64,000 nt of DNA from Bdellovibrionota bacterium (lineage in GTDB: Bacteria; Bdellovibrionota; Bdellovibrionia; Bdellovibrionales; JAEYZS01). The stretch is from assembly GCA_040386775.1 (NCBI GenBank), contig JAZKEU010000017.1, positions 1 through 64,000 on the forward strand, given 5' to 3'. Both the position numbers and the translations under genes were made by a program. Below the pieces are notes generated by a model that saw only the letters and a list, made by a program, of their open reading frames with translations, did no database searches and was not told where the DNA came from. Of this stretch, positions 48,695 through 51,813 are shown one piece after another; position 1 is the first letter of the stretch; each line of letters opens with the position of its first letter.

Positions 48695-48782
48695 ATTAGA
48701 AATATTCTTTTACATCATTTCCATAGAAGAAATCAATAATTTGGATATATTTTATTTTAACAAAACCACTAAGGGGGAAAAA

Positions 48783-49028
48783 ATGAATCTAAAAATATTA
48801 ATTGTAGGACTGCTACTGGCATCAAGTTCGTATGCCCAACAAAATGATCATCGAGCCATTTACATGGCCCTGAATGTGGAAGAGATAAACACCTCTGAGA
48901 TTCCATTCGATGGCGTTGTCAAAACAGAGAAGTCTGTTGGAGGATTAACGTGTTATAGAACTCAAGCCGTAGCGCCAACCAACAAAGCTAGATATGCATG
49001 TGCTTTCGATAAAATCAGTTTGATGTAA
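48783..49028 (+). CDS. Small exported peptide
   Basis: The ATG at 48783 follows AAGGGGGAAAAA. The 81-residue product has a signal peptide (MNLKILIVGLLLASSSYAQ) and about 60 mature residues with two Cys (LTCYRTQ, YACAFDK), consistent with one disulfide. The longer frame from 48588 runs over the LysR gene on the other strand and is rejected. Function unknown; no homologue recognised. Confidence 0.7.
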   Translation: MNLKILIVGLLLASSSYAQQNDHRAIYMALNVEEINTSEIPFDGVVKTEKSVGGLTCYRTQAVAPTNKARYACAFDKISLM

Positions 49029-49322: not shown

Positions 49323-49988
49323 CTAAAAAAGTTTAAACTTTGTTGAGATGTCGAAGGTTTGAATCATTGCTTTTTTCTTACCCGAAATAGACTTCAGATC
49401 GAAGACAAAGTTTTCCTCTGTTAATTCGATTCCTTTGAATCGACCTAAAGGGTGTTGCTCATCACCAATACTTTTTATTACTTTAGCCATGTATGGTCTT
49501 AATTGAGATTGTGAAGTTCGTTTAGAGTCTAAACTTAATATAATATTGACGTCCTTATCCGCGAGTAAATCAGTCCAAGTTCCCTTCGCAAACTTTCCTG
49601 TAATTTGATAATGTAAATCTATACGGAGATTTTTTTCAGGGTATTCTCTTCTATTAATTTCGATAGTGACATTTTTATCATCAATTTTTTTCATAATTAA
49701 CTCAGAAAAACCGCTTGCATCCTTTCCTGGAACTTTATTGGCAGTTATTTTTTTTCCAGACCTCTTATTCGTTTCATTAACCTTCTGCTGTAAGAAAGTA
49801 ACGTTTGCAGAATTTTGTTCAAATACGATTTCCTCTTTATGGTCCAATATAGCGTTATAAACAAATTTTCCTTCTGGAGAAGTAATGAGTTTTGCTTCTC
49901 TAGTTATTGCTGAAGATGTAGAGCTAATTAAAGCTACGGCCATTGTTATAGATAAGTATTTAATAAGTTCATTCATGTTAAAAGCCAT
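49323..49988 (-). CDS. Exported protein of unknown function
   Basis: From the ATG at 49988 (preceded by GAGGAGACACTT) the 221-residue product has a signal peptide (MNELIKYLSITMAVALISSTSSA after the first four residues) and a beta-rich mature domain without Cys. No known motif is visible. The reading frame from 50042 would add 18 residues of poor signal quality. Confidence 0.72.
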   Translation of the reverse strand: MAFNMNELIKYLSITMAVALISSTSSAITREAKLITSPEGKFVYNAILDHKEEIVFEQNSANVTFLQQKVNETNKRSGKKITANKVPGKDASGFSELIMKKIDDKNVTIEINRREYPEKNLRIDLHYQITGKFAKGTWTDLLADKDVNIILSLDSKRTSQSQLRPYMAKVIKSIGDEQHPLGRFKGIELTEENFVFDLKSISGKKKAMIQTFDISTKFKLF

Positions 49989-50175
49989 AAGTGTCTCCTC
50001 TTCATAGCTTTGACCTACTAGTACAAGAGTTGTTCCATTCAAAATAACAATAATTGGATCTGAAATCTAAATTTTGATTTGGGTTGTTTTTTTTACAGGA
50101 GATATTGGGACCATGGCCAAAGTGACTCTTACAAAATGAGGTATATCTTTGATAGAGATATTCGGCGCAAAAAAA

Positions 50176-50195
50176 AAGCCCCGGTTAGGGGGCTT
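50176..50195 (-). terminator. Orphan minus-strand terminator
   Basis: AAGCCCC / GGGGCTT with a 6-nt loop and a T-run on the minus strand (A-run at 50169-50177 on +). No minus-strand protein gene precedes it. Confidence 0.75.
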
Positions 50196-50370
50196 ATGAG
50201 GTCATGCTTGCTAATCTGAAAACAGAACTAAGGGGGGAGGGATGTCCGAATTCAATTTAGCAAGCAGGTTATCCTTAAGCAATCACTGTGCCATCTCTAC
50301 GTGGCTTAAAATGTCTAAGACATTCATTTTTATGTAAGAGATTCATGATGAGTGAAGAAAAGTCATAATA

Positions 50371-50437
50371 GTGAGCCGCACCTTTACCAAAGACTCGCGT
50401 TAATACGACGCAAACCTTTGGAAAAGGTGCGGCTCAC
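50371..50437. repeat. 22-bp inverted repeat
   Basis: GTGAGCCGCACCTTT-a-CCAAAG pairs with CTTTGG-a-AAAGGTGCGGCTCAC with one mismatch, with a 23-nt loop that itself contains GCGT/ACGC. No second copy is seen in the window. Confidence 0.85.
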
Positions 50438-50640
50438 CTTTTACCCAAAAATGCGCGGGTGGCGGCCCTCAACGTCACTCGTGGGTAAAAATTACATCTT
50501 TATAGGTGTCTAAAATATAAACAATACTAGTGATATTAATAACTTATGCAATTTTAAATTATATACAACGCGAGGCATAACAATTGCTCATATAGGCTGA
50601 GTTAGGATTGGAATTAAAAATATTAAACGAGGACTTATTT

Positions 50641-51813
50641 ATGAAAATGAAGTTTGTAGTTGGGTTAGCAGTTAGTGCTTTAAGCCTATCAGCCTTTGCC
50701 CAAGGTTCAGTAGAGAACCAAGCCATTATCGAAGTTGTGAATGATCCAGCTCCGGCTGCGTCGGCGAAAGATTTATCTCAAGCCAACTCACAGTCACAAA
50801 CCGTGACTACGACAACAACGTTACAGCCGATTGTTCAAAATCAACCGGTTATCACGCAACAACAACCTACTATATATGTACAAAAGCAGGAGTCGGCAGT
50901 TGTTGAAGCCTCACCACTCAGTGAATCTGCTGCTGATAAGTTAAGAAAGCAGAGAATCGAGATGGAACAACAAACTGAATCTAAGATTGTTGAAAAACTC
51001 GAAGAAGCTAGAATGAAGGCTGAGCAAGAGAGAGCTAATAAGCTTTTAACTGGCTTAGAAGAAAAGAAAGAAGAGAAAAAAGAAGAAGTTATGGCTCCTG
51101 TAGTAGCGCCAGTGGTTGTTGCTCCACAAGCTATTCAAGTGGTTGAGCCAGTGATCGTTCAAGAAGTTAAGCCTGAACCAGCTGTAGAAGTTAAAACGGA
51201 ACTGGCTAAATTGGACGAAGAAGAAAAGAAATCCTCACACCGTTTATTCGTTGGGGCTGATGCAGGTTTTGTATCTTACCCGGCTGACAATATCAAGACA
51301 ACAGGAGCTGCAGGTTTTACTGTAGGTTCAGTGATCGATGAGAAGTATATCGTTGAAGGTGGCTTCCTTTACTCAAAAGGTGATATTGAAAGCGTTGTTA
51401 GAGACTATATTTATGGTATGTTCCCAACAATCATCGAGATGGAACAATACAACTTCTCGGGTGCATTTAAATATAGAATTTTAAAAACAAGACTCTCTCC
51501 ATATGTGGGCGGATCTTTATCTTATACATATAGAAATTATGAAGACAGACAGTCTAATGAAATCACTTACGGTTACCCAGCTCTTGAGAGCAGCTCATGG
51601 GCGATTGATTTAGGTTTAATCGTTGGTGCGGATATCAGATTGACGGATTCATTCACAATCGGTGCAGACTTGAAGTATGTAATGAACGTTGCATACGACA
51701 CAAATTCAAATGGTCGTTACGAGACATCGCAAATGTATGATGATTTCTACACTGATCCAGTTGAAGAATTAGGATACTATAACTTCCTAATCAACGCGAA
51801 ATTTACTTTCTAA
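50641..51813 (+). CDS. Outer-membrane beta-barrel protein
   Basis: The ATG at 50641 follows CGAGGACTTATTT. After a signal peptide (MKMKFVVGLAVSALSLSAFA) come a Thr/Gln/Val-rich region, a charged helical stretch (about residues 95-155, likely coiled coil, EQERANKLLTGLEEKKEEKK), a Val/Pro-rich linker and a C-terminal beta-barrel of about 190 residues. The barrel has alternating aromatic strands (for example KYIVEGGFLYSKGD, AFKYRILKTRLSPYVGGSL) and ends in a terminal Phe (INAKFTF), the BAM recognition signal. The coiled coil may reach the peptidoglycan or another protein. Confidence 0.85.
   Translation: MKMKFVVGLAVSALSLSAFAQGSVENQAIIEVVNDPAPAASAKDLSQANSQSQTVTTTTTLQPIVQNQPVITQQQPTIYVQKQESAVVEASPLSESAADKLRKQRIEMEQQTESKIVEKLEEARMKAEQERANKLLTGLEEKKEEKKEEVMAPVVAPVVVAPQAIQVVEPVIVQEVKPEPAVEVKTELAKLDEEEKKSSHRLFVGADAGFVSYPADNIKTTGAAGFTVGSVIDEKYIVEGGFLYSKGDIESVVRDYIYGMFPTIIEMEQYNFSGAFKYRILKTRLSPYVGGSLSYTYRNYEDRQSNEITYGYPALESSSWAIDLGLIVGADIRLTDSFTIGADLKYVMNVAYDTNSNGRYETSQMYDDFYTDPVEELGYYNFLINAKFTF

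Follow-up and report, generated by a model that had tools for sequence, protein, structure and literature searches.

A predicted sigma-54-controlled small RNA with an exposed C-run, and its C-rich siblings, in the Bdellovibrionia

Background

The Qrr sRNAs and GlmY are intergenic, sigma-54-dependent RNAs with sibling RNAs; they work through Hfq or RapZ and are not C-run RNAs. C-runs are found in other sRNAs. Actinobacterial 6C / B11 carries them in hairpin loops, has a G-tract leader as target and acts with no known Hfq (PMC10470900 and its reference Mai 2019). The rhizobial RNAs SmelA075 and SmelA099 share a conserved anti-Shine-Dalgarno (anti-SD) loop motif, CCUCCUCCC, on variable stems (PMC3927594). 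CJnc230 (FlmE) of Campylobacter jejuni is an RpoN-linked RNA of ~90-98 nt; it has a single-stranded anti-SD region and represses at ribosome sites (PMC11187230). In Bdellovibrio bacteriovorus HD100, eight attack-phase RNAs have been listed, with no target, together with merRNA (PMC3627812). These are noncoding RNAs from the same bacterial class as the RNA described here.

The candidate sRNA lies in a window of 64,000 nt (the whole stretch of DNA analysed) from a member of the Bdellovibrionota. Like 6C / B11, it displays a C-run in a hairpin loop, and a search of five genomes gave no Hfq. In contrast to 6C / B11, which has two C-rich loops and a different structure and belongs to another phylum, it has a single C-rich loop; neither the two loops nor a match to the Rfam 6C model is present. 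We know of no sigma-54 promoter for 6C / B11. SmelA075 and SmelA099 are alphaproteobacterial and each carry three or four repeats of a hairpin with the loop CCUCCUCCC, whereas the loop of the window RNA reads AUCCCUCCCCCCUUAG. CJnc230 is processed from the flgE mRNA and uses a CCUU motif; the window RNA has its own sigma-54 promoter. It resembles Qrr and GlmY in being intergenic, sigma-54-linked and accompanied by siblings, with no sequence relation to them. C-rich anti-SD sRNAs and sigma-54 sRNAs are thus known kinds; their combination, the sibling set and its near-universal core are, as far as we found, undescribed in the open literature.

Extent, promoter and terminator of the sRNA gene

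The sRNA gene (50169..50267, minus strand, ~98 nt) consists of a C-run stem-loop followed by a terminator, and was delimited by alignments and a model, R1. It is intergenic, between an unassigned gene on the same strand (49323-50042) and a divergent outer-membrane beta-barrel protein (OMP) gene (50644..51813, plus strand; PF13505). An earlier note on this DNA proposed an RNA of 384 nt. Only the 3' third of that stretch is conserved, beginning at a sigma-54 promoter, and the sequence upstream of it is not. Judged by its conservation, the small-RNA gene in the window is real, but it is smaller, and under other control, than was supposed.

The promoter, TGGCACAGTGATTGCT, is of the -24/-12 type and is located at 50278..50293 on the minus strand; read from 50293 to 50278 it is TGGCAC-N5-TTGCT and agrees with the consensus at 11 of 12 positions. 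It is the best sigma-54 site of the window, where one other site reaches 10. Aligned across three genera of the family (TGGCACAGTGATTGCT, TGGCACAGCGATTGCT and TGGCACCTGTGTTGCT), it keeps the -24/-12 signature with correct spacing. The three genomes contain 11, 11 and 12 copies of the pattern TGGCAC-N5-TTGCW (34 in total), as against 1, 0 and 0 copies of the reversed control. Each of these genomes contains one rpoN gene and about ten or more strong matches to the sigma-54 activator domain. The window gene therefore has what is found with sigma-54-dependent sRNA genes: a rightly placed -24/-12 promoter, and the sigma factor and activators in the genome. From the geometry of the promoter, transcription is predicted to start at 50267 (+/-2), 12 nt past the GC of the -12 element, which gives the length of ~98 nt.

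The intrinsic terminator, AAGCCCCCUAACCGGGGCUU followed by a T-run (50169..50195, minus strand), was located by a scan and is kept in the relatives with one compensatory pair. The earlier note had also recognised this terminator and had seen no protein gene directly upstream on the minus strand; both observations are borne out.

A strong 22-bp hairpin, which the same note had included in the RNA, is present at 50365..50441 but lies outside the sRNA. It belongs to an interspersed repeat of ~75 bp that is nearly palindromic, each end reading AAAGGTGAGCCGCACCTTTTCC or close to it. At least 11 copies are found in the same genome, the others being 85-89% identical; none was matched at the orthologous loci of the two other genera. 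Because it is multicopy and unmatched at those loci, the hairpin is excluded from the sRNA. The repeat has the appearance of two inverted GTGAGCCGCAC units, similar to REP/BIME elements.

Conservation and synteny

When 60 related genomes are searched at the DNA level, there is one match to the 3' part of the region (~50294-50167) in each of two other genomes of the family, at 88% and 82% identity. These genomes, G001 and G002, represent two other genera; G000 is the genome of the window itself. With R1, the three family genomes score 121, 122 and 104 bits; scores elsewhere stay below 30 bits. Weak R1 matches beyond the family (24-29 bits) were not accepted, and the window RNA is counted as present in three genomes only. 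All three genera share an arrangement of tRNA-Leu(CAA), sRNA and OMP gene, with the tRNA on the strand of the sRNA. The OMP orthologues adjoining the sRNA in G001 and G002 are 41-44% identical.

No Rfam 15 family matches the window RNA at gathering score; the window yields tRNAs only. Relaxed-threshold matches in the region (miRNA-like, Phe_leader, ar14) are all far below cut-off, at chance level, and were rejected. A viral collection gives no match to the region.

A sigma-54-like promoter, AGGCATAACAATTGCT (50573..50588, plus strand), likewise precedes the divergent OMP gene, and its GG/GC elements and spacing are kept in the three leaders. The three sites match 9, 11 and 9 of 12 positions and lie 58-71 nt upstream of the ATG; sites as weak as these are common, and they are persuasive through their shared position only.

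A conserved stem-loop with an exposed C-run

The stem-loop occupies 50205..50266 on the minus strand. Its arms (50266-50257 and 50214-50205) form a main stem of 10 bp, supported by covariation together with the inner pairs CGGA/UCUG, and enclose a 42-nt loop that carries CCCTCCCCCC at 50241-50232, as described in the earlier note. CCCTCCCCCC has a single occurrence in the window, where 0.01 would be expected. Each base of the C-run is unpaired with a probability of at least 0.97. The unpaired putative seed, CCCUCCCCCC (50232..50241, minus strand), lies inside GGACAUCCCUCCCCCCUUAGUUCUGUU, which is identical in the three genera while the surrounding stem varies with compensation; at least 23 nt of the loop are strictly invariant.

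In the three-sequence alignment 94% of cells are paired. Both-sided changes occur in 5 of 24 pairs, four of them in the main stem and the fifth in the terminator; the compensatory changes that the earlier note asked for in relatives do exist. When the 3' letters are shuffled, five such pairs are reached in 6 of 500 trials; a slid partner gives 0-1. The whole 384-nt stretch folds with a z-score of -7.8, much of which is owed to the 22-bp hairpin. A conserved stem whose C-rich loop is left unpaired is the arrangement seen in C-rich anti-SD sRNAs of the 6C or rhizobial type.

G-rich ribosome sites

Partners for such a loop are available. Among 398 genes (464 kb of the genome), GGGG occurs 37 times at -20..-6 and CCCC is absent from the same positions. 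GGGG there reaches a frequency of 6.6 per nt per 1000 genes, whereas the other bins have 0.7-1.7; it is about 4-5 fold commoner at ribosome sites than in neighbouring bins. A weaker trend of the same kind is seen in the HD100-like genome. Runs of G4-G7 next to the start codon, reported earlier for nine leaders of the window, are present in all nine. The reported tilt of G-rich sites towards exported proteins did not hold up: 9 of 18 genes with G5 sites have a signal-peptide-like start, compared with 43 of 151 (p = 0.10).

The choice of particular leaders is less clear. Neither the duplex energy of the loop with ribosome-site windows nor its exact complementarity to them is better than that of the reversed loop; flank shuffles around the C-run give duplex energies that are no poorer, and they do not lower the count of matching leaders. 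Complementarity to leaders is therefore not above controls, and the repression of particular leaders suggested in the earlier note is putative. Since control loops do equally well, the window RNA can be said to work like a C-rich anti-SD sRNA rather than to be one. The earlier proposal of a trans-acting C-rich RNA, capable of pairing with ribosome sites rich in G, is supported by the conserved structure with its compensatory changes, the invariant unpaired loop, the RNA's own promoter and terminator, the C-rich single-stranded parts of its siblings and the G-run enrichment. The particular leaders are putative partners; support for pairing is at the level of C-run and G-run. Given the 4-5 fold excess of G-runs at ribosome sites, anti-SD pairing is the likeliest mode of action.

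Within the window, the best individual site is that at 48783 (plus strand), where ACUAAGGGGG stands just before the start codon and 10 nt are complementary to the loop. This leader, ACTAAGGGGGAAAAAATG (48768-48785, plus strand), belongs to a small exported protein and lies 1.5 kb from the sRNA; the single perfect 10-nt match is not surprising by count.

A search for Hfq (PF17209) that is positive in controls known to bear the protein gave no match in five genomes. Of five genomes searched for the 16S tail GGAUCACCUCCUU, three contain it; the remaining two may have incomplete rRNA.

Sibling C-rich sRNAs

Siblings were found by reading the sequence that follows other sigma-54 sites. sRNA-B is a second sigma-54-led C-rich sRNA (G000:C17:94657-94556, minus strand, stretch L180), also present in G001 and G002; its loci include L062 and L057, and a neighbouring family contains a relative (L127). 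CCCCUC, CGCCCCACG and GAUCCCCUCC are invariant in it, the last sitting in the terminator loop; the terminator stem is wholly different in the three genomes yet compatible. An M16 peptidase gene is located near sRNA-B in G000 and G002. Loops of the type GGAUC(C)CCCUCC in sRNA-B and in the core sRNA of G001 resemble the 16S tail GGAUCACCUCCUU.

The pattern of a promoter followed by a C-rich stretch occurs in 49 of 141 genomes of the order, while the reversed control gives a handful. A model, R2, was built from 19 of the 49 pattern matches, with 98.4% of cells paired. Its layout is a 5' run of C5-C9 and then a terminator hairpin with a C-rich loop. This core sRNA (~60 nt) is found in 113 of the 144 class genomes, and each of these except one has a single match. 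At E<=1e-4, R2 matches 106 of the 369 phylum genomes; every one of the 106 belongs to the class. Each of the 30 best core loci has a sigma-54 site whose end lies 13-15 nt upstream of the C-run, and about nine of these loci had not been picked by the promoter pattern.

The core sRNA of the window's own genome (G000:C22:4122-4174, minus strand, L167) has 10 Ns at the C-run and scores just 34 bits. That of an HD100-like genome is located at G031:C1:2620002-2620060 (minus strand, L170). This genome is taken to be B. bacteriovorus HD100 because it has a c-di-GMP-I riboswitch that falls exactly within the coordinates published for the merRNA of that strain. The core sRNA at 2,620,002-2,620,060 is not overlapped by any of the eight attack-phase RNAs on record (PMC3627812). 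No Rfam family matches the sibling loci. The window RNA gives no match to R2, which describes a 5' C-run and a GCGGCC-type terminator with a C-rich loop; by its promoter and C-run it is a sibling of the core sRNA, not a member.

Several other features were observed. Firstly, conserved blocks, such as TTGTCG...CTCGACA, occur upstream of the core promoter in a Bdellovibrio-like genus; a block CAATTGTCGTTTTCTGTCAAAAACCTCGACA lies ~45-95 nt before the -24 element of core promoters (L137-L157) and is a possible activator binding site. A shared activator-binding site was rejected: no inverted repeat is common to many loci, and none is tied to the window promoter. Secondly, Bdellovibrio-like genomes have two tandem terminator-type hairpins after a protein gene, with loops CCCAUCCCCUCC and GGAUCCCCCUCC (G031:C1 ~67650-67790, minus strand; L071-L079, L081, L086), possibly a C-rich sRNA derived from a 3'UTR. 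Thirdly, other sigma-54 sites precede a different recurring hairpin, CCGC-AAUC-GCGG-AGA(C/U)C, with G-rich inverted repeats behind it (L041, L048, L061 at G000:C17:112689-, and L101); in L048 and L061 it stands before membrane protein genes.

Proposed mode of action and alternatives

From these sequence comparisons, the window RNA is probably a stand-alone, trans-acting sigma-54 sRNA whose C-run blocks G-rich Shine-Dalgarno sites, and one of a class-wide set. Enhancer-activated sigma-54 polymerase would start near 50267 on the minus strand, in response to the signal of an activator, and stop at the terminator near 50169. The CCCUCCCCCC left unpaired in the loop of the main stem would then pair with Shine-Dalgarno sites of the GGGGGA type and so block translation without Hfq. 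The set of sigma-54-controlled C-rich sRNAs would comprise the window RNA and sRNA-B, both confined to the family except for the relative of sRNA-B in a neighbouring one, and the nearly universal core of ~60 nt. As the OMP gene too has a sigma-54-like promoter, the sRNA and this divergent gene are probably switched on together by an activator. A wider reading is more tentative and may or may not apply: throughout this class of predatory bacteria, sigma-54 activators might switch on several Hfq-independent C-rich sRNAs, one nearly universal and others restricted to a family, that mimic the anti-SD tail of 16S rRNA and together act on translation, damping or re-ranking translation of mRNAs with G-rich sites, many of them for the envelope.

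A less likely explanation, though one with points in its favour, is that the RNA is real and sigma-54-driven but titrates an RNA-binding protein, as a decoy or sponge, or else mimics the anti-SD sequence in general and damps translation broadly instead of repressing a defined set of mRNAs. The length of the invariant loop exceeds the needs of a simple C-run seed, the loop controls show no target specificity beyond G-richness, and there is a likeness between the sibling loops and the 16S tail. Protein is an equally conceivable partner for a C-run, but we know of no poly-C-RNA-binding protein in this bacterial group, which counts against a sponge. The described systems also speak against this explanation: B11 uses its C-rich loops on a leader with a G tract (PMC10470900), and the rhizobial CCUCCUCCC loops are read as anti-SD (PMC3927594).

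It is very improbable that the locus is an untranscribed DNA repeat or a functionless fossil. A true repeat element does adjoin the sRNA gene, but the gene itself is single copy and has compensatory changes, and its promoter and terminator are kept across genera while the flanks have diverged.

No more credible is a cis-acting leader, or attenuator. It would serve the gene at 49323-50042, which is on the same strand and whose start codon follows the terminator by ~130-160 nt. In G001 and G002 the sRNA is followed by a different small lipoprotein-like ORF or directly by tRNA-Leu; because the downstream gene is not conserved, the sRNA is not regarded as its leader, and the centroid contains no alternative antiterminator fold.

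The 384-nt RNA of the earlier note, starting from a TATAAT at 50560 and including the 22-bp hairpin, can be set aside almost entirely: the box exists (50563-50558, minus strand) but has no -35 partner in a sigma-70 scan of the region, the hairpin is a repeat unmatched at the orthologous loci, and the upstream sequence is unconserved.

Significance

Regulation by sRNAs is almost unknown in Bdellovibrio, and the sRNA genes described here, whose promoter type is defined, form a concrete and tractable set. The core sRNA is single-copy, near-universal in the class and present in HD100. A set of this kind, acting as anti-SD sRNAs, would provide another Hfq-free C-run system to compare with those of mycobacteria, rhizobia and Campylobacter, and would tie sigma-54 signalling in these predators to the control of translation.
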